Shown: piece by piece, positions 4,003 to 34,778 of the stretch
How the letters are laid out: each line of letters opens with the position of its first letter
Position numbering within the stretch: position 1 is the first letter of the stretch
Assembly (NCBI RefSeq): GCF_001552675.1
Contig: NZ_BCRQ01000003.1
Coordinates: forward strand, 1-64,000
DNA: 64,000 nucleotides
DNA from: Alicyclobacillus sendaiensis NBRC 100866
GTDB taxonomy: Bacteria; Bacillota; Bacilli; Alicyclobacillales; Alicyclobacillaceae
Direction: 5' to 3'
The notes under the pieces: generated by a model
What the model saw: only the letters and a program-made list of their open reading frames with translations
Told to the model about the DNA's origin: nothing
Databases searched by the model: none
Program-made: the position numbers and the translations under genes

Positions 4003-4770
4003 CTAGCGGCCGCGAAACGTGGGCTTTCGCCGTTCCATGAACGCGCGCATGCCTTCGCGCGCGTCTTCCGTCGCAAAGAGCAGATAAAACAGGTTCCGCT
4101 CCGCCTCGAGGCCGTCAGCAAGCGCCGTGTCCATCGCCTGATACACGGCTTCCTTGATGCACCGGAGTGCCACGGGCGGCATCTCGGCCAAGCGCTTGCC
4201 GAGATCCACCGCCGCCTGCAGGCACGCCTCGTCCGGCACGACGCGGTTCACGAGCCCAAGCGCCAACGCCTCCTTCGCCGAGATAGGCTCCCCGAGCCAA
4301 AGGAGTTCAAGGGCCCGCGCCTTGCCCAGCCTGCGCGCCAGCCACTGTGTGCCGCCCGCCCCCGGCATGAGCCCGAGCTTCACTTCAGGCTGACCGAACT
4401 TCGCGCTCTCGCCCGCGATGACGAGATCGCACGCCAGGGCGAGTTCGCACCCGCCGCCGAGCGCAAAGCCGCGGACCGCCGCAATCACGGGCTTGTGCAC
4501 GCCGCGGATGCGGTCCCAGACGCGGAACTGATCGCGCAGCTTCATCTCCACGGCGCTCGCCTCGGCCATCTCCGCGATATCCGCGCCCGCCGCAAACGCC
4601 TTGTCCCCGCCCGTCAGGACGATGGCTCGCACCTGCTCTTCCGCGTCCGCGGCCTCCAGGGCCGCGACCAATTCGTCCACGAGTTCGAGGTTGAGCGCGT
4701 TCAACCGCTCGTCGCGCGCGATGCGCACCACGCGAACCGGCCCGTCATCGCGAATGGACAGGTACGCCAC
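4003..4770 (-). CDS. paaF: Enoyl-CoA hydratase, PaaF-like
   Basis: Crotonase-fold protein of 255 residues. Oxyanion-hole segments are FAAGADIAEMAE (about 59-70) and LGGGCELALACD (about 104-115); the PGAGGTQ loop and a C-terminal ATEDAREGMRAFMERR segment follow. These resemble E. coli PaaF (2,3-dehydroadipyl-CoA hydratase) more than FadB. It starts at GTG 4770 behind GGGAGGTG, 12 bases after the E2 gene, and is the last gene of the aminotransferase/2-oxoacid dehydrogenase operon. The shared TetR site at the head of that operon supports a place in phenylacetate breakdown. A general short-chain enoyl-CoA hydratase is the alternative. Confidence 0.82.
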   Translation of the reverse strand: MAYLSIRDDGPVRVVRIARDERLNALNLELVDELVAALEAADAEEQVRAIVLTGGDKAFAAGADIAEMAEASAVEMKLRDQFRVWDRIRGVHKPVIAAVRGFALGGGCELALACDLVIAGESAKFGQPEVKLGLMPGAGGTQWLARRLGKARALELLWLGEPISAKEALALGLVNRVVPDEACLQAAVDLGKRLAEMPPVALRCIKEAVYQAMDTALADGLEAERNLFYLLFATEDAREGMRAFMERRKPTFRGR

Positions 4771-4782
4771 GCGAGCACCTCC

Positions 4783-6141
4783 CTACCGAAGCTCCGCCCA
4801 CAGCCGATCCGGCTCCTCCAACAGCTCGCGCACGCGGTTGGTGAAGCGAATCGCCATGCCGCCGTCGATGATGCGGTGATCAAACGAGAGGGACACGTGG
4901 GCGATGTTGCGAATGACAATCTCGTTGTTGCGCACGACGGGACGCGGCTCCATCTTGTGAATGCCGAGAATGGCCGACTCCGGGTAGTTGATGATGGGCG
5001 TCGCGCACAGCCCGCCGAGCGCGCCGGCGTTCGAGATGGTGAACGTGCTGCCCGTCACCTCGTCGAGCGACAAACGGTTTTCGCGCGCCCGCCGGGCGAG
5101 ATCCGACACCTCCGCTGCAATCTCGAAGACCGACTTCTGGTCCGCGTGCTTCACGACGGGCACGATGAGCCCCTGCTCCGTGTCGACCGCGATGCCGATG
5201 TGATAATACCTCTTGAGCAGCACGTGCTCCTGCGCCTCGTCGACCGACGCGTTGACGTACGGGAACTCCTTCAGCGCGATGGCCGCCGCCTTCGCGAAGA
5301 ACGCGAGCGATGTGAGCTTCACGCCCCGCGCCTCCGCGTACGGCCGCAGCCGGTCGCGGAGCGCCTCGATGCCGTCCATCTCGATCTCGTCGATGTGCGT
5401 CGCGTGTGGGATGATGCGCTTGGCCTGCACCATGTGCTCGGCGATGCGCCGCCTGAGCCCGCGCAGCGGCACCTGGTCGACGAGATCGCCCGCCGGCCCG
5501 GGCGTCGCCGCGTGGGACGTGGCTTTCGCCTGAACGCCGGCGCCCGTCTCCGCGCTCGCTTGGGCGGGCTGGGCCCCGGGCTCGCGCCCGCCCTCCGCGA
5601 AGCGGCGCACGTCCTCCTCCGTCACCCGGCCGATGGGGCCCGTCCCGTCGATCTCGTCGATGTTCACGCCAAGCTTCCGCGCCAGTGCGCGCACGTGCGG
5701 CGTGGCGAGCGCCCGCCGCCTCCCCTCTTTGGGCGCGGCTTGGCTCGCCTGAGGCGCGGCCGACGCGCGAGCCGTGTGCTCAGGCTGCGGCTCACGTTGC
5801 CCGCGAGGCGAGGCCTGCTCTGGACGGACCGTCTGCGCGACACTCGCCGCAGGCGCAGCCGCCGAACCTGCCGAAGCCGCCGCAGCTACCGAAGCCGCCT
5901 TATCGGCGCCCGCCTCGCGAATGACTGCGAGCACCGTCCCCACGGGCACCACCTGCCCTTCGCGCGCCACGATGCGCTCCACGACGCCCGCCACGGGAGA
6001 CGGCAGCTCCGCCGCCACCTTGTCCGTCTGCACCTCCACGAGCGGCGCGTCCTGATCGACGCGATCGCCCTCGTTCACCAACCAGCGCAAAATCTCGCCT
6101 TCGTGAATGCCCTCGCCGATGTCCGCCAGTTTGAATTCCAT
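4783..6141 (-). CDS. 2-oxoacid dehydrogenase E2, dihydrolipoamide acyltransferase
   Basis: E2 core of a pyruvate or branched-chain type 2-oxoacid dehydrogenase, 452 residues. In order: one lipoyl domain (1-78) with the lipoylated lysine as Lys41 in QTDKVAAE, an Ala/Pro/Gln-rich linker, a peripheral-subunit-binding domain (about 130-165, with ATPHVRALARKLGV), a second linker, and the acyltransferase domain ending in DHRIIDGG with His422 and Asp426. The start at 6141 has GGGAG with a 5-base spacer and lies 13 bases after the E1beta stop. No E3 gene is present here. Substrate specificity cannot be read; context suggests aryl or branched 2-oxoacids. Confidence 0.9.
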   Translation of the reverse strand: MEFKLADIGEGIHEGEILRWLVNEGDRVDQDAPLVEVQTDKVAAELPSPVAGVVERIVAREGQVVPVGTVLAVIREAGADKAASVAAAASAGSAAAPAASVAQTVRPEQASPRGQREPQPEHTARASAAPQASQAAPKEGRRRALATPHVRALARKLGVNIDEIDGTGPIGRVTEEDVRRFAEGGREPGAQPAQASAETGAGVQAKATSHAATPGPAGDLVDQVPLRGLRRRIAEHMVQAKRIIPHATHIDEIEMDGIEALRDRLRPYAEARGVKLTSLAFFAKAAAIALKEFPYVNASVDEAQEHVLLKRYYHIGIAVDTEQGLIVPVVKHADQKSVFEIAAEVSDLARRARENRLSLDEVTGSTFTISNAGALGGLCATPIINYPESAILGIHKMEPRPVVRNNEIVIRNIAHVSLSFDHRIIDGGMAIRFTNRVRELLEEPDRLWAELR

Positions 6142-6154
6142 ATCGTCTCCCGCC

Positions 6155-7138
6155 TCAGAACATGATGGTCTCTTCGATCCCGGCGCGAATCCGCGCTTCG
6201 GTCGGCATGTATTCGTCCTCCAGCGCGAAGAACGGGACCGGCACATCAAACCCGGCAATCCGCTTGATGGGCGCCCGAAGGTAGAGAAGCGCCTCCTCGT
6301 TGATGAGCGACACAATCTCGGCCCCAAGCCCCGCCGTCTTGTGCGCCTCGTGCACCACCACCGCGCGCCCCGTTTTCTGGACCGACTCGACAATGGCGTC
6401 GCGATCGAGCGGATACAGCGTGCGCAGGTCGATCACGTCGCAGGTGAAGCCGCGCTCGCGCTCGAGGGCGTCTGCCACCTTGAGTGCCGTGCGCAGCATC
6501 GAGCCCCACGCGAACACCGACACGTCTTCGCCCTCGCGCACCCGCTTCGCTTTGCCGATGGGCACGCGGTACAGCCCTTCGGGCACCTCCTCGCGGAAGG
6601 CGCGGTACAGCTTGGTGGGCTCCAGGAACACCACGGGGTCCGGATCTTCGATGGCGGAGATGAGGAGCCCCTTCGCGTCATACGGGCCGCTCGGCACCAC
6701 CACCTTCAGCCCCGGCGTGTGCGCGAAGAAGCTCTCCACGCTCTCGGCGTGGAGCTCCGGGCCATGGATGCCCGCGCCGTACGGCGTGCGGATAGTCATC
6801 GGCACGGGGAACTGGCCCTGCGACCGGTACCTCATCCGGGCGACGTGCGAAAACAGCTGATCCAGCGCAGGGAAGATGAACGCCAAGAACTGAATCTCCG
6901 GCACGGGAATGAGGCCGTTCACCGCCATACCGACGGAGGTGCCGATGATGGCCGATTCGGCAAGCGGCGTGTCGATCACGCGCTCCTCGCCGTACTTCTC
7001 GAGAAGACCGTCGGTCGCGCGAAACACGCCCCCGTTTTTGCCGATGTCCTCCCCGAGGAGCACGACGCGCGGATCGTCCGCGAGCTTGAGGTCCAGCGCC
7101 TCGTTGATGGCCTGGACCAGATTCAACATCCTGCTCAT
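6155..7138 (-). CDS. 2-oxoacid dehydrogenase E1 beta subunit
   Basis: Transketolase-like beta subunit, 327 residues, starting with LNLVQAINEALDLKL. It shows GEDIGKNGGVFRATDGL (29-45), DTPLAESAIIGTSVGMA (56-72) and the C-terminal transketolase domain with VVHEAHKTAGLGAEI. It pairs with E1alpha to decarboxylate a 2-oxoacid on thiamine diphosphate and reductively acylate the E2 lipoyl group. Its ATG overlaps the E1alpha stop by 4 bases (ATGA at 7135-7138), implying translational coupling. PdhB and BkdB/BfmBAB-type subunits look alike at this level, so the substrate is open. Confidence 0.9.
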   Translation of the reverse strand: MSRMLNLVQAINEALDLKLADDPRVVLLGEDIGKNGGVFRATDGLLEKYGEERVIDTPLAESAIIGTSVGMAVNGLIPVPEIQFLAFIFPALDQLFSHVARMRYRSQGQFPVPMTIRTPYGAGIHGPELHAESVESFFAHTPGLKVVVPSGPYDAKGLLISAIEDPDPVVFLEPTKLYRAFREEVPEGLYRVPIGKAKRVREGEDVSVFAWGSMLRTALKVADALERERGFTCDVIDLRTLYPLDRDAIVESVQKTGRAVVVHEAHKTAGLGAEIVSLINEEALLYLRAPIKRIAGFDVPVPFFALEDEYMPTEARIRAGIEETIMF

Positions 7139-8247
7139 ACGGACACCCCCTCACGAGACCGGCGGTACTCCTCGCGCTCGGCGGCGAGGTGCCAGGGCGC
7201 TTCTGCGTAGACGTGATCGAACATCATCTCCATGTCGGGCGGCGCAATGGAGAGCGCTTCGTCCACAGCCGCCTCTACCCGCGCCCTGACCTCCTCCTGG
7301 AGCTTCGCCTCGTCGGCATCCGACCAAAGCCTTTGCGACTCGAGGTACAGGCGCAGGCGCGCGATGGGATCTCGCTTCTGCCACGCTTCTACGACCGCCT
7401 TTTGATCGCGGTAGCGCGTCGGATCGTCCGCCGTCGTGTGCGCGCCCATGCGGAAGGTCACCGCCTCGATGAGCGTCGGCCCGAGACCGTGTAGCGCACG
7501 CGCCCTCGCCTCCTTCACCGCGCGGTACACCGCGAACGCGTCGTTGCCGTCGACGCGCACGCCGACGATGTCGTAGGCGATGGCCCGCTGCGCAATGGTG
7601 CGCGAGGCCGACTGGCGCGAGAACGGCACGCTGATGGCATAACCGTTGTTTTGGCAGAAGAAGATGACCGGCAGGTGGAAGACGCCCGCGAAATTGAGCG
7701 CCTCGTGAAAGTCGCCCTCGCTCGTCGCGCCGTCGCCGAAGTACGCGATGCTGACGGCCGCCTCCTTCCGGTGCCGGCTGGCCCAGGCGGCGCCGACGGC
7801 GTGCAACACGTGCGTCGCAATCGGCACGCTGGGCGGAAGGATGTGTCGGCCCTCCGGGCTGCGGATGCCTTCGACCCGCCCCGACCAGTACAGCAGCACG
7901 TTCGCGGGCGACTGCCCGAGCACCATGGTCGCGGCGTGATCGCGATAGGACGGGAAGACGAAGTCCTCGGGCGCGAGCGCCATGGCGCTCGCCACCTGCG
8001 CGGCCTCCTGGCCCTCGAACGGCGCGTACGTGCCGATCCGGCCCTGGCGCTGGAGCGCGATGGCCTTCCGGTCAAACGCGCGGGCGAACACCATGTGTCG
8101 GTACATCGCCACCATGACCTCAGGCGAGATGTCGTCCACGGATCCGGCGAGCGTGCCGTCCTCCTTCAGGAGGTGAATCTCCTCGTACAGCCCTTCCGCC
8201 TTGGCGATAGCCATGAGCCGCTCGGCCCGATCATGTTCCGCCAACAT
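7135..8247 (-). CDS. 2-oxoacid dehydrogenase E1 alpha subunit
   Basis: Alpha subunit of 370 residues. The thiamine diphosphate motif begins GDGATSEGDFHEALNFAG and ends in CQNNGYAIS (about 170-205). The phosphorylation-loop-like segment GAHTTADDPTRYR lies near residue 275. The start at 8247 has GAGGAGG with a 7-base spacer, 12 bases after the aminotransferase stop. It is the first of three intact dehydrogenase genes. A pyruvate, branched-chain 2-oxoacid or phenylpyruvate substrate is possible; position in a putative phenylacetate regulon makes aromatic or branched substrates attractive, which is inference. Confidence 0.9.
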   Translation of the reverse strand: MLAEHDRAERLMAIAKAEGLYEEIHLLKEDGTLAGSVDDISPEVMVAMYRHMVFARAFDRKAIALQRQGRIGTYAPFEGQEAAQVASAMALAPEDFVFPSYRDHAATMVLGQSPANVLLYWSGRVEGIRSPEGRHILPPSVPIATHVLHAVGAAWASRHRKEAAVSIAYFGDGATSEGDFHEALNFAGVFHLPVIFFCQNNGYAISVPFSRQSASRTIAQRAIAYDIVGVRVDGNDAFAVYRAVKEARARALHGLGPTLIEAVTFRMGAHTTADDPTRYRDQKAVVEAWQKRDPIARLRLYLESQRLWSDADEAKLQEEVRARVEAAVDEALSIAPPDMEMMFDHVYAEAPWHLAAEREEYRRSREGVSV

Positions 8248-8259
8248 GCGAAGCCCTCC

Positions 8260-9114
8260 TCATTCCATGGAATGTGTCAGTGCGCGAAGAAATGCGTCGT
8301 TTTCCTCGGGCGTGCCCAGCGAGACCCGCACGGTCCCGGGGGCACCGAGGCCTTCCCCGGCTCGGACGATGACACCATGGCGAAGCAGACGATGGGCCAC
8401 CTCTTCGCCTGATCCCGGCACTTCGAACAGGAGAAAATGGGTTTCGGACAGGTAGACGCGTAGGCCCATCTCGGCAAGCGATCGCGCGACGCGATCCCGT
8501 TCCTGGGCGTTTTGCTCGCGGCACATCGCGGCGAAATCCGCATCGTCAAGGGACGCGAGCGCGGCCGCCTGTGCCAACCGGCTCGTGTTGAAAGGCCCTC
8601 TCACCTTGTGTAGTACGGAGGCCACGTCCGGGTGCATCGCGCCGTAGCCGATGCGAAGCCCGGCGAGCCCGTAGATCTTGCTGAACGTGCGCAGGACGAC
8701 AAGGTTCGGATGAGCGCCAAGGAGTGGGATGGTCTGAAGGTAGTCGGCAGAGGTGACGTATTCGTAATACGCCTCGTCGACGACCACGAGGACGCGAGCG
8801 GGCACGCACTCGATGAAGCGCCTGAGCGCGTCAGCGCCGACGATGGTGCCCGTGGGATTGTTGGGGTTGCACACGAACACGAGCTTCTCCGCAAGGCGAG
8901 GCGAGACGGATTCAGGATACAGCGCGGCTTTCGCCATCTCCTCCGCAACCGCCTTCGCTGCCTTCGGCGAACATCCGTAAGCGTTTTCATTGGAAGCCAA
9001 CTTGACCACGTGCGTCAAACCCAACTCGCGCTGGACCTCTTCAATCGGCTTGCCGGGCGCGTAGCGGGCGACATGGCCGAGCGAACCCCGTGCGGAAATC
9101 AACCCCGTCCCCAC
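8260..9114 (-). CDS. HisC-like aminotransferase with an internal deletion
   Basis: Fold-type I PLP aminotransferase related to histidinol-phosphate aminotransferase, but only 284 residues against a usual 355-365. Present are the N-terminal YAPGKPIEEV and NENAYG, the NPNNPTGT loop, VVDEAYYEY, the PLP lysine in RTFSKIYGLAGLR, and the C-terminal arginine segment GTVRVSLGT. Missing, without loss of frame, are about 70 residues between YPESVSPRLAEK and LVFVCNPNNP, the part that normally contains GNGSDE and helps hold the cofactor phosphate. GTG 9114 is preferred (GGAGG, 8-base spacer). It is probably inactive, or an assembly collapse. It heads the 2-oxoacid dehydrogenase operon. Confidence 0.78.
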   Translation of the reverse strand: MGTGLISARGSLGHVARYAPGKPIEEVQRELGLTHVVKLASNENAYGCSPKAAKAVAEEMAKAALYPESVSPRLAEKLVFVCNPNNPTGTIVGADALRRFIECVPARVLVVVDEAYYEYVTSADYLQTIPLLGAHPNLVVLRTFSKIYGLAGLRIGYGAMHPDVASVLHKVRGPFNTSRLAQAAALASLDDADFAAMCREQNAQERDRVARSLAEMGLRVYLSETHFLLFEVPGSGEEVAHRLLRHGVIVRAGEGLGAPGTVRVSLGTPEENDAFLRALTHSME

Positions 9115-9137
9115 GGAAGACACCTCCGGTTACAAAA

Positions 9138-9152
9138 CAAGCGCTTGCTTGA
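9138..9152. promoter_or_regulatory. Putative TetR operator before the aminotransferase operon
   Basis: The 15 bases CAAGCGCTTGCTTGA are identical to 21989-22003 in front of the TetR gene. The palindromic core is CAAGCGCTTG. It lies just downstream of the predicted transcription start, a usual place for a repressor. Confidence 0.7.
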
Positions 9153-9160
9153 CTATCGTA

Positions 9161-9188
9161 AGCATACCAGACCATGCGAGAATGTCAA
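9161..9188 (-). promoter_or_regulatory. Sigma-A promoter of the aminotransferase/2-oxoacid dehydrogenase operon
   Basis: Read on the minus strand, a perfect -35 TTGACA lies at 9183-9188, followed by a 16-base spacer and -10 TATGCT at 9161-9166, which has an extended TGG in front. The TetR-type site lies immediately downstream, as in the promoter at 22012-22040. Confidence 0.65.
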
Positions 9189-14318: not shown

Positions 14319-15515
14319 TCACGCCTCCACCCGTTCGAGGAGCGTCGCCACGCCCTGCCCCACGCCGACGCACAGGGTGGCAATCCCGTAACGCGCGCCC
14401 GTCCGCGCCATCTGCTTCGCGAGCGTTCCCGCGAGGCGCGCCCCCGAGCAGCCGAGCGGATGCCCCAGCGCAATGGCGCCGCCATTCGGATTCACCTTGG
14501 CGGGATCGAATCCCAGCTCGCGGATGCACGCCACCGACTGCGCGGCAAACGCCTCGTTCAGCTCCACCCAGTCGATCTCGTCCACCCGAACGCCCATCCT
14601 CGCGAGGAGCTTGCGCACAGCGTACACGGGGCCAATGCCCATCACGCGCGGGCTGACTCCCGCCGTGGCGCTCGCCACCCAGCGCGCGAGCGGCTTCAGG
14701 CCGAGTTCTCGCCCCTTCTCCTCCGACACCAGCACGAGTGCCGCCGCGCCGTCGTTGATGCCCGAGGAGTTGCCCGCCGTCACCGTGCCGCCCTCGCGGA
14801 AGGCCGGCTTGAGCTTCGCGAGCCCCTCCAGGGTGGTGTCCGGCCGAAGGTGCTCGTCGCGATCGACCACTGTCTCCTGCTTCTTCTCCTTCACGACGAC
14901 AGGCACAATCTCCTCCGCGAAGATGCCCTCCGCCTGCGCCCTCGCCGCTTTTCGCTGGCTCGCGAGCGCAAACGCGTCCTGGTCCTCACGCGAGATACCG
15001 AACTGCTCCGCCACGTTTTCCGCCGTCTCGCCCATGCTCTCGAGCGGATACGGAAAGCGCGGGTTCGGCATGCGCCAGCCGAGCGTCGTATCCCACATCA
15101 GCTGGTTGCCGCGCACGTACTCCATCTCCGGCTTCGGAAACACGAGCGGCGCGCGCGTCATGCTCTCCACGCCCCCGGCGATGGCGATGTCGATCTCGCC
15201 AAGCGCAATCGCCTTCGCCGCCTGATTCACGGCCTCCAGCCCCGAGGCGCACAGGCGGTTGACGGTGACGCCCGGCACGTGCTCGGGAAAGCCCGCGAGG
15301 AGCACCGCCATGCGCGCCACGTTCCGGTTGTCCTCCCCCGCCTGGTTGGCGCATCCCATATAGACTTCCTCCACCTGCCCCGGATCGATCCCGGCCCGTT
15401 CACAGACGTGCTTCAACACGTGCGCAGCGAGATCGTCCGGGCGAACGCGCTTGAGCGCCCCGCCCTGTCGGCCGATGGGCGTGCGCACATATTCGGCGAT
15501 CCACACGTTTCGCAT
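14319..15515 (-). CDS. paaJ: 3-oxoadipyl-CoA thiolase-like acyltransferase
   Basis: Thiolase of 398 residues. The nucleophilic cysteine lies in [12 protein letters not shown] (Cys about 90), the active-site His in [14 protein letters not shown], and the second Cys near the C-terminus in [25 protein letters not shown] (about 55-70) and [11 protein letters not shown] are characteristic of 3-oxoadipyl-CoA thiolases (PcaF/PaaJ), which release acetyl-CoA and succinyl-CoA at the end of phenylacetate breakdown. The start has AAAGGAG upstream, and it follows paaG by 42 bases as the last gene of the paa operon. Confidence 0.88.
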
Positions 15516-15557: not shown

Positions 15558-16331
15558 CTAGCGGCCCTGAAATCGCGGCGGCCTCTTTTCCAAAAACGCC
15601 CGCACGCCTTCCTGGTGATCCTCCGTTTGGCCCGCCTCCTTCTGCAGGACGGCCTCGAGCTCGAGCGACTGCGCCAGCGTCTGCTCCATGCCCTCGTAGT
15701 GCGCCCGCTTGATGAGGCCGATGGCGCGCGTCGGCATCGACGCGAGCCGGTCCGCGAGCGCCATGGCCTCCGCCATCAGCTGATCCGCGGGCACCACGCG
15801 GTTGACGAGGCCGATCTCGTAGGCGCGCGCGGCATCGACGCGATCGCCCAGCATCGCTAGTTCCATGGCGCGCCCGAGCCCGACAATGCGCGGCAAGAAC
15901 CAGGTTCCCCCGGAGTCGGGAATGAGTCCAATATTCACAAAAGCCTGAATGAAGACGGCCGATTCGGAGGCGACGCGGAGATCACAGGCGAGCGCAAGGC
16001 TGACGCCGGCACCTGCCGCGACACCGTTGACGGCGCAGACGATGGGTTTCTCCAGATGCGTCATGGCGGTGATGAGAGGATTGTACGTCTCTCGGATGAC
16101 CTTGGCGTAGTCGGGGTCACCGCCGCCGAGATCCAAATCCTGTCCCGCGCAGAAGCCGCGGCCCGCGCCCGTCAAGAGCACGGACCGAACGCCATCGTCG
16201 TCTCCCGCCGCCTGAAACGCCTCCCGCAGGGCGAACAGCGTGTCTCGGGTCAAGGCGTTCACCTTTTCCGGCCGGTTGAGAGTGACGACCATCACAGCCC
16301 CCTGGTGTTCCACGCGAACGCTTTCATGCAT
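15558..16331 (-). CDS. paaG: PaaG-like 1,2-epoxyphenylacetyl-CoA isomerase
   Basis: Crotonase-superfamily protein of 257 residues. PaaG-like features are GRGFCAGQDLDLGG (about 57-70), YNPLITAMTHLEKPIVCAVNG and GAGVSLALACDLRVAS, plus the conserved aspartate in LIPDSGGTW. PaaG converts ring-1,2-epoxyphenylacetyl-CoA to the oxepin form. AAAGGAG with a 9-base spacer supports the ATG at 16331. It lies in the paa operon between the thioesterase and thiolase genes, but 180 bases separate it from the thioesterase, an interval that holds a gene fragment and a strong hairpin. Confidence 0.85.
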   Translation of the reverse strand: MHESVRVEHQGAVMVVTLNRPEKVNALTRDTLFALREAFQAAGDDDGVRSVLLTGAGRGFCAGQDLDLGGGDPDYAKVIRETYNPLITAMTHLEKPIVCAVNGVAAGAGVSLALACDLRVASESAVFIQAFVNIGLIPDSGGTWFLPRIVGLGRAMELAMLGDRVDAARAYEIGLVNRVVPADQLMAEAMALADRLASMPTRAIGLIKRAHYEGMEQTLAQSLELEAVLQKEAGQTEDHQEGVRAFLEKRPPRFQGR

Positions 16332-16436: not shown

Positions 16437-16517
16437 TCACCAGACGACCGGTGCGCCTTGGGCGCGCGCCTCTTCGATGTGGCCAAGCACCTTCTCGAAT
16501 CCTCGCTCGTTGATCAC
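16437..16517 (-). pseudogene. Possible aldehyde dehydrogenase remnant
   Basis: A 26-codon frame reads INERGFEKVLGHIEEARAQG followed by APVVW and a stop. This resembles an internal ALDH segment, where GPxINxxxFxKVLxxIEEAxxxGA is usual, and has no neighbours that would complete a protein. Its GTG overlaps the thioesterase stop (GTGA), mimicking translational coupling. It may be the scar of a lost ALDH gene such as paaZ or paaN. The fragment is short, so chance resemblance or a tiny gene is possible. Confidence 0.4.
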
Positions 16518-16906
16518 GCCATGGCCCGAATGCGCGCCTCGATCTTCTCCTTCGGCAAAATGTACTGCACGACTTCACCTTCGCCGATCCGGGCCTTGTC
16601 GTGTTCCGCCCAGACGCGGCAATCCACCCGCGGCCCCTCCACGCGCGTCACCTCGGCGTAAAACGACACGCGTTTGCCGAGGGGCGCAGGCGCCAGGTGG
16701 CGAACCGACACGCTGTGGCCGATGCCCTCCTCGCCGTCTTCGAGGTAGTCGAGGATGGTTCGCCGAGCCACCCATTCCATGTACGAAATCATGGTCGCCG
16801 TCGACAGCACGGGATGAACGCGCTTTCCGAGGAACGAAGGACACATGTCCTCGGTCACGGTGATCTCCCATGACTTCCGCTGGCCTGGCAACAGCCCTTC
16901 GCGCAT
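16514..16906 (-). CDS. Thioesterase of the fluoroacetyl-CoA thioesterase-like group
   Basis: Hotdog-fold protein of 130 residues. The beginning, EITVTEDMCPSF, and the following VHPVLSTATMISYMEWVARRTI match FlK-like/thioesterase superfamily proteins, in which this Thr/Glu/His-containing region forms the active site; HSVSVRHLAPAP and GEGEVVQYIL complete the fold. The start at 16906 is chosen because GGAGGTGA precedes it by 5 bases; an ATG at 16930 overlaps the EthD stop but has no clear site. It probably hydrolyses dead-end CoA thioesters made by the Paa epoxidase, the job of PaaI elsewhere. Confidence 0.75.
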   Translation of the reverse strand: MREGLLPGQRKSWEITVTEDMCPSFLGKRVHPVLSTATMISYMEWVARRTILDYLEDGEEGIGHSVSVRHLAPAPLGKRVSFYAEVTRVEGPRVDCRVWAEHDKARIGEGEVVQYILPKEKIEARIRAMA

Positions 16907-16929
16907 CGCCCTCACCTCCGCCTCGAGCA

Positions 16930-17238
16930 TCACCCCTCGTCGATCCGGCCCACCATCATCGTGACGATGTCGCCCGCAAAGCTCATGACGTCCTTCGCCG
17001 CAGCCTTGTTCTCCGGCGACTTCATGGCCTGCTTGAACGTCTCTTCGTTTTCGAAATACATTTCTGCCATGAGATAGTAGGGCGCCTCCCCGCCCATGGC
17101 GTCCGACTGAATGCGGGTCACCTCGGCGCGCACGAGCCCAGGCACCTTTTGCACCAGCGGCAGATGCACCTCGCGATAATGCGCTTCGAACGCCTCCACG
17201 TCCGCGGGCTTTTTGTACAGCGCAATCAGCTTGATCAT
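16930..17238 (-). CDS. EthD-domain protein
   Basis: Protein of 102 residues with the EthD/dimeric alpha-beta barrel layout: MIKLIALYKKPADVEAFEAH at the start, then HLPLVQKVPGL, and a C-terminal amphipathic helix. EthD-family proteins often occur in oxygenase gene clusters, but their role is not defined. AAAGGGAG precedes the ATG at 17238. It lies between paaK and the thioesterase on the same strand, so it is presumably translated from the phenylacetate transcript. Confidence 0.8.
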   Translation of the reverse strand: MIKLIALYKKPADVEAFEAHYREVHLPLVQKVPGLVRAEVTRIQSDAMGGEAPYYLMAEMYFENEETFKQAMKSPENKAAAKDVMSFAGDIVTMMVGRIDEG

Positions 17239-17292
17239 ACCTCAACGCTCCCTTTCTCACGTAGGAATGCGGCACCTGGGATGTCACACGTG

Positions 17293-18635
17293 TCACGCGT
17301 AGACGTGTCGGCGATCGACCACCCGCACCGCCTTGCCCTCGCTGCGCGGCAAGCTCCCCGCCGGGACGGCGCGCACCTCCGTGCTGAGCCCCAGGACGTC
17401 CCGCAACCGCGAAGCGGCGCGGGCGCACAGAGCCTGCTCGACGCCGGACGCGTCCGGATGGCTCGCCTGACGAGCAAAGACCAAGTCCAGCTCCACGAGC
17501 ACCGTCAGCCGGTCCAATCCACCCTCGCGCTCCACGACAATTTGATAGTGTGGAGACAGCCCCTCCATCGCAAGGAGGACCGCCTCAATTTCTCAATTTC
17601 CGACGGAAACACGTTCACGCCCCGCACAATGAGCATATCGTCGATCCGCCCTTTGATGCGCGTCATGCGCGCGTGCGTGCGGCCACACCGGCACGGCTCG
17701 GGGATGAGCGCCGCGATGTCGCCCGTGCGGTACCGGATGACCGGCATCGCCTCTTTGGTGAGCGTGGTGAACACCAGCTCGCCATACGTGCCCGGCGGCA
17801 GGGGTTCGAGCGTGTCGGGGTGGATGACCTCGACGAGGAAGTGATCCTCGGCGATATGCAGCCCTTCCTGCGCCTCGATGCACTCGATCCCGACGCCAGG
17901 CCCGATGACCTCCGACAGCCCGTACACGTCCATCGCCTTGAGCCCGTAGGCGTCCTCGAGTTTCTGCCGCATCTCCTCCGTCCAGGGCTCGGCGCCGAAG
18001 ATCCCGTACTGGATCCCGACCTTGCGCGGATCTTTGCCCTCCGCGCGCATGTGCTCCGCGATGGTCAGGCAATACGACGGCGTGCCGGCGATCCCGCGCG
18101 GGCGCAAGTCCTCCATCAGGGTGGCCTGACGAGCCGTCTGACCGCCCGAGACGGGCACCACGGTCATCCCGAGGCGCTCCGCGCCGTAGTGGAAACCGAG
18201 CCCGCCCGTGAACAGGCCGTAGCCGTAAATGACGTGAAAGACGTCCCCCGGCTTGCCGCCCGCCGTGACGATGGCCCGCGCGACCACTTCGCTCCAGCGG
18301 TCGAGATCGCCCTTGGTATAGGCGACGAGCGTCGGCTTGCCCTTCGTGCCCGACGATCCGTGGATGCGCGCCACCTCCCGTGGGTCCACGGCCAAAAGGC
18401 CCAGCGGATAGTGATCGCGCAGATCCTGCTTGCGCGTGAACGGAAAGCGCGCCAAATCGGCGAGGGTGCGCAGGTCGGATGGCTTGACGCCCGCCTCGTC
18501 GAAACGAGCGCGGTAAAACGGCACCTTGGCGTAGACGCGATCCAACACGGCGCGCAGCCGCTCGAGTTGGAGCGCCTCGAGCGCGGCGCGAGACATGGTC
18601 TCCACTTCGGGCTGATACATGCTAGCCACCTGCAT
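17293..18635 (-). pseudogene. paaK: Phenylacetate-CoA ligase PaaK, frameshifted by an 8-bp duplication
   Basis: Adenylate-forming ligase that would turn phenylacetate into phenylacetyl-CoA. The first frame carries ATP-binding [23 protein letters not shown] and [17 protein letters not shown], then breaks after NVFPSEIE. The remaining C-terminal domain ([20 protein letters not shown] onward to 17293) is open in another frame. The cause is a tandem copy of CTCAATTT (17584-17591 and 17592-17599); removing one copy restores a normal protein of 444 residues. The frame as read stops at 17505 and lacks the lid domain that ends the family. ATG 18635 or 18620 are possible starts. Confidence 0.85.
17584..17599. 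repeat. 8-bp tandem duplication inside paaK
   Basis: Two exact adjacent copies of CTCAATTT. The extra 8 bases shift the paaK frame by +2. Deleting either copy gives an uninterrupted reading frame across the join, so the duplication accounts fully for the break. Confidence 0.9.
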
Positions 18636-18710
18636 TCGCCTCCTATCCCCGTCGGCGCATGCGGCCGACACCATGCAAGCGCTTCCATCCGTTGCGCTCG
18701 CCCGCCGGGC

Positions 18711-19175
18711 CTACGGCTTCATCGCCTCGAACGGCTGGCGGCATGCGCGGCAGTAGTACACCGCGCGACACGGCGTCGGGCCGAACAAGCTCTCGATGTC
18801 CGTGTCGCGCGCCCCGCAGTACGGGCACACGACAGGCGCGGCATCGCCCTTTGCCGGCACGGCGACCCCCATCGCGCGCAGCTTCTCAATCCCGTCTGGT
18901 GCAATGCGGCTCGGATCCCACACGACGTCGAGCGCGAACGCCACATCAGCCGCGACCCCGCGCTCCGCCAGGGCCGCCCGCACCTTCTCCGCAATCCAGC
19001 CCAGCGCTGGGCAGCCGAGGAACGTGGGAATGAGTTCCACTCGCGCGCCGCGATCGTCCACGGACACGGATTTGACCATGCCGAGATCCACAACGCTCAC
19101 GACGAGCAGCTCGGGATCCGGCACGCCGGCGAGCACTTGCCAGATATCCTCCTCGGACAACGAGCGAGTGGTCAC
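18711..19175 (-). CDS. paaD: Phenylacetyl-CoA epoxidase maturation protein PaaD
   Basis: PaaD-family protein of 154 residues. The N-terminal half is a DUF59/MIP18-like domain (DPELLVVSVVDLGMV, then TFLGCPAL). The C-terminal half has a zinc-ribbon pattern: CPYCG (about 117-121), FGPTPCRAVYYCRACRQPFE with three more cysteines, and a terminal KP. PaaD is thought to help assemble metal centres for the PaaABCE oxygenase. GTG 19175 is the start, 12 bases after paaC. Confidence 0.9.
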   Translation of the reverse strand: MTTRSLSEEDIWQVLAGVPDPELLVVSVVDLGMVKSVSVDDRGARVELIPTFLGCPALGWIAEKVRAALAERGVAADVAFALDVVWDPSRIAPDGIEKLRAMGVAVPAKGDAAPVVCPYCGARDTDIESLFGPTPCRAVYYCRACRQPFEAMKP

Positions 19176-19187
19176 GCGAATCCCCCC

Positions 19188-19976
19188 TCACCAGACGGCC
19201 GCGCCGAGGCTGCGCACGCCGTTCATGGTCTCGAGCAGCGCCGCCGCGTCGTGGTCAGGAGCCGTTTGGCGCGCGCCTTCCCGCGGATGCGCGGCGAGCC
19301 TGGCCGCGATCTCCTCCGCGGGCAACCCTGCCCTCGAGAGCGTCGCTTCGACGCGCGCCACGAACGCGCGGCGCAAGTCCGCGAGGGGCCGCGACAGGAT
19401 GCCGAGATCGACGAGCGCCTGCGGATCTACGGCAAAGGCCACGAGATCCGGTAGATCGGGGAGCAGCGCCGCAAACGCGCCGCGAAGCCTCGCCGCCGCC
19501 TCGCCGCCGGCGCGGCCGAGATCGACGACCCATCTTTCCATGTGCAGATGATGGTAGTGTTCCTCGCGCAGCATCCGCCGGGCTCCGCTGGCCCAGACCT
19601 CGTCGCCCGACTCCGCCAGGGCCGCGAGGCGAACGGCATCCCACGCGTCGTACAGGTAGTGGCGGAGCACCGTGTACGCCCAATCGCCGTTCGGCCGCGC
19701 ACACAGGGCCGCGTGCCTCCTCTCGGACGGGGCGCGATCGAACGCGAGCGCATCAGCCTGACCGAAACCGCACGCCTCGGCCAACTCGTACCAGAACGAA
19801 GCATGGCGCACCTCGTCCTGCGCGATGGAGGCAAACGCCACGTCCTCCTCCACCTCGGGCGCGAGGCCCAGCCATTCCGAGTCCCGGTGGCCGAGGAACA
19901 GCTCTTCATCCGCGAGTTGCAGCGCGAGGCCGCCGAGGATGGCATCTCGCACTCGCGCGTCAGCCTCTATCGCCAC
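19188..19976 (-). CDS. paaC: Phenylacetyl-CoA epoxidase subunit PaaC
   Basis: Ferritin-like structural subunit of 262 residues that pairs with PaaA. Typical are LQLADEELFLGHRDSEWLG near the N-terminus, EEDVAFASIAQDEVRHASFWYEL (about 44-66), YDAWDAVRLAAL, and EEHYHHLHMERWV. GTG at 19976 is the chosen start: AAAGGAG overlaps the end of paaB with an 8-base spacer, leaving 5 bases between the genes. It is intact, close to the usual 250-260 residues. Confidence 0.9.
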   Translation of the reverse strand: MAIEADARVRDAILGGLALQLADEELFLGHRDSEWLGLAPEVEEDVAFASIAQDEVRHASFWYELAEACGFGQADALAFDRAPSERRHAALCARPNGDWAYTVLRHYLYDAWDAVRLAALAESGDEVWASGARRMLREEHYHHLHMERWVVDLGRAGGEAAARLRGAFAALLPDLPDLVAFAVDPQALVDLGILSRPLADLRRAFVARVEATLSRAGLPAEEIAARLAAHPREGARQTAPDHDAAALLETMNGVRSLGAAVW

Positions 19977-19981
19977 AAGGC

Positions 19982-20353
19982 TCACTCCTTTCGCACGTCC
20001 GCGATCACGTCGTCGATGTTCATGGCCTGCGCCTTGAAGCGCTTCCATCGCCGCGCGTTGTCGGCGTATCCGGACACATCCCGATACTTCCGGTCAAACT
20101 CGCGGGCGAACCAGTCGGGATCGTCCGGCGTGGCGTGCACGTCGGACCGACGCACGGCCCAAATGTTGATGGCGTCCGCGCGCCGCAGGAAGTTCTCGCG
20201 GGCGAGCTGGAGCGCCCATTCGGGCGACGGCGCGAGGAGGCTCCCGACGTGGACGTGCGGGTCGAGATCGGAGGCCTGGACAAAGATCTCGTAGACGTCG
20301 TAGGACGTGTGTCGCGCGCGCTCGTACACTTGGTCTTTCTCCACCTGGGTCAT
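19982..20353 (-). CDS. paaB: Phenylacetyl-CoA epoxidase subunit PaaB
   Basis: Small subunit of the PaaABCE oxygenase, 123 residues. Recognisable segments are YDVYEIFVQASDLDPHVHVG (about 19-38), EWALQLARENFLRR and DAINIWAVRRSDV. The start could be any of three in-frame ATGs at 20365, 20359 or 20353; the last is used because GGAG lies 6 bases upstream of it. It follows paaA closely and ends 5 bases before paaC. Confidence 0.88.
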   Translation of the reverse strand: MTQVEKDQVYERARHTSYDVYEIFVQASDLDPHVHVGSLLAPSPEWALQLARENFLRRADAINIWAVRRSDVHATPDDPDWFAREFDRKYRDVSGYADNARRWKRFKAQAMNIDDVIADVRKE

Positions 20354-20370: not shown

Positions 20371-21306
20371 CTACACCACAGCCGCCGTGCGCGCCCGGAC
20401 AAGCGCCTCGCGGACCCATGCCTGATCTTGGTGCGCCATGCGGCGCAGCGCGATACGCTCCTGCGACTTCGGCCCGATGTTCTCGCGCACAACCCGCGAC
20501 CAACGCTCCCAGTCGGGCTCCGTGTATCGCCACAGCCCCGCCTCTTCGTCAAACCGAAGCGCCGAGTCCGGAATCTCGAGTCCCACCGCCCGAATGCGCG
20601 GCACGTAGCGCGTGAGGAACTTTTGACGCAGTTCTTCGTTCGTGCGCGAACGGATGCGATATTCCATCATGCGGCGGGCTGCATCGGTGACCACGGGCGG
20701 GCCGAAGAAGAACAGGATGGCCTCCCACCAGCGGTTGAGGGCTTCCTGCAACATCTCCCGCTGCCATGGCTCGCCCTCCGCCAGCGATAGGATGATGGAC
20801 TCTCCGTGCTGCATATGGAAGCTCTCTTCCGCGCAGATGCGCTTCAAGACCCGTGCGTAGGGCGCGTACGAGCAATCGAGCAGCGCCGTCTGCGTGATGA
20901 TGGCCGCGCCATCCACCAGCCACCCAATGATGCCAGCGTCGGCCCACGTCGGCGCCTCCATGTGGAATACGTTGTGAAACTTGACGCGGCCCGTAATGAC
21001 ATCGTCCATGAGCTCCATCCGATCCCGCCCGAGCGGCGCCGCGAGGTCCTCAGCCACCCGCAACAGCAATTGCCCATGCCCGATCTCGTCTTGGACCTTG
21101 GCCATGAGCGACATCTTCCGGCGCAACGTCGGCGCCTTGGGAACCCACTCCTTCTCCGGATACGCGCCCATGATCTCGCTCACAGCGTGCATGTGAATGA
21201 GGCGCAGCAACAACAGCCGATAATCGTCGGGCATCCAGTCGTGTGCCTCGATCTTCTCTCCGCGCCGAATTCGCGCCATAAACGCTTCCCTGCGAGCCTC
21301 CGGCAT
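20371..21306 (-). CDS. paaA: Phenylacetyl-CoA epoxidase catalytic subunit PaaA
   Basis: Di-iron oxygenase subunit of 311 residues that epoxidises the ring of phenylacetyl-CoA. The second iron-ligand pair appears in KVQDEIGHGQLLL (about 80) and the later one in CAEESFHMQHGES (about 160), both ExxH motifs. The substrate-binding region and C-terminal half resemble E. coli PaaA (309 residues). GGAGG with an 8-base spacer supports the ATG at 21306. It follows the TetR gene by 43 bases. No PaaE reductase gene is in the window. Confidence 0.92.
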   Translation of the reverse strand: MPEARREAFMARIRRGEKIEAHDWMPDDYRLLLLRLIHMHAVSEIMGAYPEKEWVPKAPTLRRKMSLMAKVQDEIGHGQLLLRVAEDLAAPLGRDRMELMDDVITGRVKFHNVFHMEAPTWADAGIIGWLVDGAAIITQTALLDCSYAPYARVLKRICAEESFHMQHGESIILSLAEGEPWQREMLQEALNRWWEAILFFFGPPVVTDAARRMMEYRIRSRTNEELRQKFLTRYVPRIRAVGLEIPDSALRFDEEAGLWRYTEPDWERWSRVVRENIGPKSQERIALRRMAHQDQAWVREALVRARTAAVV

Positions 21307-21349
21307 CTCGTCCGCCTCCCTTGTGTTGAATGCGGCCGTGTTTCTCGCG

Positions 21350-21958
21350 TCACGCCTCGCCCAGCAGCTCGCACGCGGCGGGCCGATCGACGCCAATTCC
21401 ATTGAACAAAAGCGTCCAGAAGTGCTCGGCGATGTCCTCCGGCGTGAACTCCCCACCGGGCCGATACCATTGATACACCCAGTTGGCGACCGAAAGCAGG
21501 CACAATCGCACGAACTTCGGGTCTGCCTCCCGCACGGCGCCCTGTGCCATGCCCTCTTCAATCCATCGGCGCCAATGCACTTCGTAACGATCCCGCTTGG
21601 ATTGAATGACCTTGCGCCGATCATCGGAGAGCGCGCGCCATTCGTGAAAGAACACCTTAGCCGACTCCTGTTGATCCGCCACCACGCGGATGTGTGCCCG
21701 GAGTCCCTCCCGCAGGCGATCCACGGGATGCTGCCATTTGGACTCTACGGCGCGAGCGGCCAACAAAAACGCTTCAGCGCCTTCGTCGGCGATTTCGAAT
21801 AGTAAGTCTTCTTTGGATTCAATGTGTGCGTACAGGCTGCCCGAGAGTACCCCTGCCTCGACCGCGATCTCGCGAATGGTGGTGCCGTGGTACCCCTTTT
21901 CGCTGAACAGCCTCCTCGCCGCGGCGAGAATTTGATCTTTCTGACTCGGCCTCGGCAT
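21350..21958 (-). CDS. TetR-family regulator of the phenylacetate genes
   Basis: TetR/AcrR repressor of 202 residues. The DNA-binding domain runs from KDQILAAARRLFSEKGYHGT through TIREIAVEAGVLSGSLYAHIESKEDLL (about 9-53). The C-terminal domain with AKVFFHEWRAL resembles acyl-CoA-responsive regulators such as FadR/YsiA and PaaR. It is the first gene of the paa operon, and a 16-bp palindrome lies between its promoter and its start, implying autoregulation. An identical 15-bp stretch lies at the aminotransferase operon promoter. Phenylacetyl-CoA is the likely inducer by analogy with PaaR. The ATG at 21958 has GGAGG upstream. Confidence 0.85.
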   Translation of the reverse strand: MPRPSQKDQILAAARRLFSEKGYHGTTIREIAVEAGVLSGSLYAHIESKEDLLFEIADEGAEAFLLAARAVESKWQHPVDRLREGLRAHIRVVADQQESAKVFFHEWRALSDDRRKVIQSKRDRYEVHWRRWIEEGMAQGAVREADPKFVRLCLLSVANWVYQWYRPGGEFTPEDIAEHFWTLLFNGIGVDRPAACELLGEA

Positions 21959-21985: not shown

Positions 21986-22003
21986 AAGCAAGCGCTTGCT
22001 TGA
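21986..22003. promoter_or_regulatory. TetR operator of the phenylacetate operon
   Basis: AAGCAAGCGCTTGCTT (21986-22001) is a perfect 16-bp palindrome. Bases 21989-22003 are identical to 9138-9152. It starts about 9 bases downstream of the -10 element, covering the transcription start region. Confidence 0.75.
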
Positions 22004-22011
22004 TTAACGTC

Positions 22012-22040
22012 ATTATACGGCGCATCGAGTCGCTTCGCAA
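22012..22040 (-). promoter_or_regulatory. Sigma-A promoter of the phenylacetate operon
   Basis: On the minus strand, -35 TTGCGA (22035-22040) and -10 TATAAT (22012-22017) are 17 bases apart. The promoter is embedded in a long inverted repeat and followed directly by the TetR operator. Confidence 0.65.
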
Positions 22041-33665: not shown

Positions 33666-34778
33666 TTACGCCTTCAGGCCGCGCGGCCCTGTGTACAGCA
33701 CGCGCGGGCGGAAAATGCGGTTATTTGCCAACTGCTCCATGACGTGCGCCGAAAGCCCCACGACGCGCGCCGCGAAAAACACCGGCGTGAAGAGCGGGAC
33801 CGGAATGCCGAGCATGTACATGACCGGCGCCGCGTAGTAGTCGAGGTTCGGGTAGAGCCCCTTCTCCTCCCGCATGATGGTCTCGCCTGCCACGCACATG
33901 GCAAGCCACTTCTTGGCTTCGGGATTCGATCCGGCCATCTCCTGCAGCGCTTCCTTCATCATCTGCGCGCGAGGATCCATCTTACGCATGTACACGCGAT
34001 GGCCGAATCCCATGATCTTCTCCTTGTTCGCAAGCTTCTCCCGGATCAGCCGCTCAAAGCCCTCCACGGTCTCGGCTTCGAGGAGCATCTCCATGACCGC
34101 CTCGTTTGCGCCGCCGTGCAGCGGCCCCTTCAGCGACGCCACCGCACCTGTGAGCGCGCCGTACATGTCCGACAGCGTCGACGTGATGACGCGCGCCGCG
34201 AAGGTGGAGTTCGGCAGTTCGTGCTCGCAGTAGACCATGAGCACCTGGTCAAAGTACTTGACCTCATCGGCGTTTGGCTCGCGGCCGGTGATCATATAGA
34301 GGCCATTCGCGACATACGACAGCTCCTCCTTGGGCGGAATCGGGTCCGCGCCGTGCGCGATGTGATGGCTTGCCGCGACAATCTGCGGCACCTGGGCCAA
34401 AAGGCGCATCGCGCGCTCCCGATTCGCGGCGGGAGACTGATCATCCAGATTGGGATCAAATCCCGACAGGGCCGACACGCCCGTGCGCAACATGTCCATG
34501 GGATGCGTGGTCGGCGGCAACTGCTTGAGGATGGCCCAGATGTTCAGCGGCACCTGGCGGTACGACCTCAGCGCGCGCTCAATCGCCTGCCGCTCCTCGT
34601 CGTTAGGCAAGCGCTTGTCAATCAGCAGGCCAATGAGATCAATATACGACACTTTCTTGGCGAGATCGATGAGGTCGTATCCGCGCAGGACAATCTCTTC
34701 GTGATCGACGTCCAGGAATGAGATCTCGGTCTCACACGCGATCACGTTTTCCAAACCGGGTCTGTACGCTTCGGACAT
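33666..34778 (-). CDS. prpC: 2-methylcitrate synthase
   Basis: Citrate synthase-family protein of 370 residues. Catalytic histidines appear in GPLHGGANE (about 218-226) and [15 protein letters not shown] (about 256-270); the aspartate is in [18 protein letters not shown] (about 310). The N-terminus [17 protein letters not shown] is that of short Gram-positive citrate synthases. Position ahead of prpD and prpB points to propionyl-CoA as a substrate, giving 2-methylcitrate, as in B. subtilis MmgD. A citrate synthase with dual specificity is possible. Confidence 0.9.

Follow-up and report, generated by a model that had tools for sequence, protein, structure and literature searches.

The genes of phenylacetate catabolism (paa) are repressed through a palindrome by PaaR, a TetR-family protein described in Thermus thermophilus, Burkholderia cenocepacia and Corynebacterium glutamicum. 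In T. thermophilus HB8, PaaR (TTHA0973) heads paaABCD and is autoregulated, and phenylacetyl-CoA is the effector of PaaR in both Thermus and Burkholderia (PMC9493321, PMC6651687). A 2026 survey of the pathway places PaaR in some Bacilli, and searching its main text turned up neither operators nor Alicyclobacillus (PMC13186573). KstR2, a TetR-family repressor of mycobacteria and rhodococci, recognizes the operator AnCAAGnnCTTGnT; the proof came from electrophoretic mobility shift assays in which one of the probes contained CCAAGCAAGTGCTTGCTTAGG (PMC3068626). It controls cholesterol catabolism in these actinomycetes.

The locus analysed here resembles PaaR systems in its genes and KstR2 in its operator. 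In the window, which is the whole 64,000-nucleotide stretch of Alicyclobacillus sendaiensis DNA under study, tetR lies directly before paaA and is thus encoded together with paa genes. Two copies of a palindrome stand at the promoters of two operons on the minus strand (Table 1), one at the promoter of tetR itself and the other ahead of an aminotransferase/2-oxoacid dehydrogenase operon that includes paaF, so that at the level of sequence the palindrome is present at the repressor's own and at another paa promoter.

A sequence-only reading of this DNA had pointed to identical 15-bp elements at 9138–9152 and 21989–22003. Both are exact copies of CAAGCGCTTGCTTGA, and the gene sets they head are separated by 13 kb. 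The 15-mer is a portion of the palindrome AAGCAAGCGCTTGCTT, which is perfect at one site and carries one mismatch at the other; the perfect site precedes tetR, as had been claimed for one of the copies. Read on the minus strand, which is the gene strand, either copy is TCAAGCAAGCGCTTG and stands 8 nt past a −10 hexamer. The claim that the elements lie downstream of minus-strand −10 elements therefore holds, although the distance is slightly shorter than the roughly 10–20 bp that had been given. Both promoters are of the sigma-A type and have the top two promoter-like scores in the 18.4 kb scanned against the consensus, with 10 of 12 matches each. The window holds 11 matches to the palindrome at up to three mismatches compared with 2.2 expected, a count reached in none of 100 shuffles but inflated because a palindrome matches on both strands.

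Table 1 Features of the two operons in the window, with candidate operators and promoters
Feature	Position	Strand	Remarks
Candidate operator 1, imperfect 16-bp palindrome AAGCAAGCGCTTGTTT	9135–9150	−	Upstream of aminotransferase/2-oxoacid dehydrogenase/paaF operon; kept in relatives
Candidate operator 2, perfect 16-bp palindrome AAGCAAGCGCTTGCTT	21986–22001	−	Upstream of tetR-paaABCD...; kept in relatives
Predicted promoter of aminotransferase/dehydrogenase operon, TTGACA-16-TATGCT, TG preceding −10	9161–9188	−	Consensus scan
Predicted promoter of tetR-paa operon, TTGCGA-17-TATAAT	22012–22040	−	Consensus scan
Enoyl-CoA hydratase, PaaF-like	4003–4770	−	
2-oxoacid dehydrogenase E2, lipoyl acyltransferase	4783–6393	−	
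2-oxoacid dehydrogenase E1 beta	6155–7138	−	
2-oxoacid dehydrogenase E1 alpha	7135–8247	−	
HisC-like aminotransferase, operon's first gene	8260–9123	−	
3-oxoadipyl-CoA/acyl-CoA thiolase (paaJ/pcaF type)	14319–15515	−	
paaG-like isomerase	15558–16331	−	
ORF, C-terminal half FlK-type thioesterase	16514–17428	−	First half overlaps displaced paaK 3' end
paaK, phenylacetate-CoA ligase	17297–18674	−	Frame change near 17586–17610
paaD	18711–19175	−	PF23451, PF01883
paaC	19188–20048	−	TIGR02158
paaB	19982–20340	−	PF06243; start approximate
paaA, phenylacetyl-CoA epoxidase subunit A	20371–21345	−	ORF open from 21624; start approximate, probably just past tetR
tetR, predicted PaaR-type repressor	21350–21958	−	ATG at 21958, stop at 21350; recognition helix LSGSLYAH

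The palindrome is strongly conserved at orthologous promoters. We searched a footprint set of 39 promoter regions of tetR and of the aminotransferase/E1 genes from 30 genomes for the KstR2-type consensus ANCAAGNNCTTGNT and derived expectations from shuffles. Allowing up to one mismatch, this consensus is present in 35 of the 39 promoters compared with 0.38 expected (shuffle maximum 3), and it is present without mismatch in 27 of the 39 compared with 0.017 expected. Orthologues of the TetR protein, 46–97% identical, occur in 29 relatives. Relatives with paaA near the tetR gene are the majority and come from several phyla; those named in GTDB genomes include Alicyclobacillus mali, A. fructus, A. 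contaminans and A. fastidiosus as well as members of the Thermoactinomycetaceae and Planctomycetota. Five close relatives, with TetR proteins 85–97% identical, each retain the pair of sites at a spacing of around 14 kb. In eight other relatives (G001, G004, G008, G025, G027, G028, G034 and G035) the dehydrogenase genes directly precede tetR-paaA, and each of the two promoters in these adjacent arrangements has an operator of its own; six of these genomes also have a detected aminotransferase gene, the exceptions being G001 and G034. The operator thus stays with its promoter across changes in gene order, and nothing else argues as strongly for co-regulation of the two operons.

The protein encoded by tetR has the features of a PaaR-type regulator with a KstR2-like DNA-binding element. 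Its N-terminal helix-turn-helix matches PF00440, and among the five TetR_N proteins of its own genome it is the only one with the helix LSGSLYAH. The core of this helix, LSGSLY-H, is invariant in 30 of 30 aligned sequences and matches LSGSLYHH of KstR2, whose operator is nearly identical to the one found here. Beyond these two elements the proteins diverge, being 25–26% identical overall in a structural alignment, and the neighbours of tetR are paa genes rather than genes of cholesterol catabolism. Among distant homologues, no clear rule emerged that relates the residue before GSLY to the type of operator. What the protein would share with PaaR is the repression of paa genes by a TetR-family member that binds a palindrome, the comparison with TTHA0973 drawing on its published description. 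There are two differences. The operator here contains CAAGCGCTTG, whereas that of Thermus is CNAACGNNCGTTNG and that of Burkholderia ACCGACCGGTCGGTT; because the latter two also differ from each other, we regard the published PaaR operator sequences as species-specific and not as defining. In addition, the predicted regulon extends to the aminotransferase/2-oxoacid dehydrogenase operon.

An AlphaFold2 model of the repressor (pLDDT 88) has TetR structures as its best matches, consistent with a TetR fold around the helix-turn-helix. PfmR, KstR2 and AibR in complex with isovaleryl-CoA come closest, and FadR ranks below them; PfmR and AibR share the fold at a TM-score of about 0.8. We take these neighbours to be acyl-CoA-responsive, in part from the titles of the structure entries. 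The targets of AibR, PfmR and Bacillus FadR are unlike those at this locus, and the NCBIfam equivalog for Bacillus FadR (NF053878) gives 58.3 bits against a cut-off of 200.

The second operon would feed the first if its dehydrogenase acts on phenylpyruvate, and gene linkage points in this direction. All 14 genomes with a linked E1 alpha gene have paaA, compared with 31 of 61 overall (P = 1.2e-5, kinship ignored). In a tree of E1 alpha proteins a branch (97/94) separates the 14 linked genes from the rest, and in their sister group of 13 relatives the E1/E2 genes lie downstream of paaG-like genes, mostly with paaK and/or thiolase genes nearby as well. Across both lineages, 27 genomes thus link this E1/E2 complex with paa genes, through two distinct arrangements. 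In the paaG/paaK region of the sister group no clear operator copy was found ahead of the E1/E2 genes, so the claim of co-regulation is limited to the first group and co-control is not universal. A precedent for the substrate comes from Streptomyces pristinaespiralis, whose pyruvate-dehydrogenase-like E1 PglB/PglC has been proposed to form phenylacetyl-CoA from phenylpyruvate (PMC7089894); the likeness lies in the proposed reaction, which in Streptomyces serves the biosynthesis of an antibiotic precursor rather than catabolism. The operon's annotated genes include none for E3, and contig C43 of the same genome encodes a complete E1–E2–E3 pyruvate dehydrogenase. A third E1 pair, on contig C29, adjoins a fatty-acid-CoA ligase gene.

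The same neighbourhood bears on the nature of the ligand. One TetR might serve both operons while sensing another acyl-CoA, of the branched-chain, fatty or 3-oxoadipyl type, with the dehydrogenase operon degrading branched-chain or other 2-oxoacids. The structures nearest to the model do include AibR, which binds isovaleryl-CoA, and FadR, a sensor of fatty acyl-CoA, and E1 alpha passes the threshold of a family model that bears the name pyruvate dehydrogenase, such models being unable to reveal the substrate of an E1. We nevertheless consider this alternative improbable, as both dehydrogenase lineages neighbour paa genes, the genome has a complete pyruvate dehydrogenase at another locus, and phenylacetyl-CoA is what PaaR responds to in Thermus and Burkholderia (PMC9493321).

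Two genes of the predicted route are damaged in the assembly. Compared with the orthologues of close and family relatives, the aminotransferase lacks around 79 internal residues in frame, and judged by this gap it is probably non-functional in this strain, or else the assembly is in error; A. mali has an intact aminotransferase. In addition, comparison with A. mali shows paaK divided between two reading frames, through either a frameshift or a sequencing error. These two defects may reflect either decay of the route in this strain or faults in the draft assembly.

The two promoters are also set apart by the rarity of the palindrome. In a search of the strain's own genome (2.79 Mb in 153 contigs) many unrelated copies were not found; the two promoters are the only places with zero or one mismatch to the 16-mer. 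At up to three mismatches the 16-mer occurs at 21 places, compared with 19 for a reversed control. The core AVCAAGCGCTTGBT has four occurrences. Two are at the two promoters, another lies within the ORF of an acyl-CoA dehydrogenase, and the last apparently lies within a spore-protein ORF. Several copies were considered and set aside as members of the regulon: one on contig C21 that appears to be located in the spore-protein ORF, one at 34606 of the window within a citrate synthase gene, one at 4187 within paaF, and one at position 28258 of contig C17 of this genome (G000), a cre-like site that overlaps an acyl-CoA dehydrogenase promoter. Several relatives used as outgroups have more typical cre-like sequences at the position of the C17 site.

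A rival reading would make the palindromes catabolite-responsive elements (cre) recognized by CcpA and not operators of a TetR protein. The 14-mer AGCAAGCGCTTGCT differs from the cre sequence TGNAANCGNTTNCA at the two end positions only, and the C17 site combines the same core with a cre-like form. The conserved promoters make this reading very unlikely: all 35 have A at one outer position and 33 have T at the other, the opposite of the T and A of cre; position 2 is variable (G, T, C or A); and just 2 of the 35 come within one mismatch of cre. Moreover, the sites accompany tetR-paaA, and do so in some relatives of other phyla too. That the identity of the two sites reflects chance or an inherited duplication devoid of regulatory role has a negligible probability, for although short sequences recur and CAAGCGCTTG is found in coding regions too, the remaining promoter sequence differs between the two sites, the site moves with its promoter when gene order changes, and conservation at 35 of 39 orthologous promoters where 0.38 are expected excludes chance.

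Further copies of the palindrome were seen in other contexts. A fadE-like acyl-CoA dehydrogenase gene (G000, contig C10, 15924–15937) contains an internal CAAGCGCTTG palindrome at synonymous positions that is kept in six of seven genomes; because it is also kept in G011, which is without this TetR, it is not assignable to the repressor and is possibly an intragenic operator of another regulator. In relatives, a sigma-54 activator gene ends ahead of a further copy, and an amino-acid permease gene follows it; this copy is nested in a larger outer palindrome (TTTGCAT...ATGCAAA in G002). It was set aside as a regulon member, as the extra outer palindrome may belong to the activator and the whole is possibly that activator's binding site. 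In G017 (contig C3, 190701) an operator copy precedes an aldehyde dehydrogenase gene by around 100 bp, which makes this gene a possible extra member of the regulon. A search of five loci of relatives against Rfam gave no match.

Taken together, the small number of copies, the conserved operators, the adjacency of the two gene sets in other Alicyclobacillaceae, the single TetR with a matching helix and its likeness in fold to acyl-CoA-responsive TetR proteins argue for one repressor. The single acyl-CoA-sensing repressor that had been proposed for both operons thus gains comparative support, and we infer from these comparisons its binding and repression, its ligand phenylacetyl-CoA and the substrate of the dehydrogenase. 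It is highly likely that one PaaR-type, phenylacetyl-CoA-responsive and autoregulated TetR co-controls the paa operon and a probable phenylalanine-to-phenylacetyl-CoA operon. The palindrome would be the operator of the TetR protein encoded in the window; a repressor dimer, or a pair of dimers, would sit over the transcription start at the tetR-paaABCD-paaK-paaG-thiolase promoter and would also bind the aminotransferase–E1 alpha–E1 beta–E2–paaF promoter 13 kb away. With both transcription starts occupied, neither operon would be expressed as long as the pathway is not in use. Release of the repressor from DNA would come from an aromatic acyl-CoA, phenylacetyl-CoA being the most likely one. The aminotransferase would probably convert phenylalanine to phenylpyruvate, and the 2-oxoacid dehydrogenase, with E3 supplied by the general pyruvate dehydrogenase, would probably convert phenylpyruvate to phenylacetyl-CoA, with PaaF working in the lower pathway.

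By sequence comparison, we see this system as a well-supported variant of known PaaR regulons, one in which the operator is of the KstR2 type and the regulon is wider. On balance, we slightly favour the broader proposal that in Alicyclobacillaceae and their relatives a dedicated phenylpyruvate dehydrogenase, composed of E1 and E2 with a borrowed E3, makes phenylacetyl-CoA from phenylalanine and bypasses free phenylacetate, under the same phenylacetyl-CoA-sensing repressor that controls paa through a KstR2-type operator. A partial literature search found no earlier description of a phenylacetate regulon in Alicyclobacillaceae or Thermoactinomycetaceae. For phenylacetate catabolism in Alicyclobacillaceae, our analysis offers concrete candidates for the operator, the repressor and the regulon, which conservation extends to Thermoactinomycetaceae. 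It also suggests a probable substrate for a third 2-oxoacid dehydrogenase that is automatically named pyruvate dehydrogenase, and indicates that repressors of aromatic-acid and sterol pathways have a recognition helix and an operator in common.
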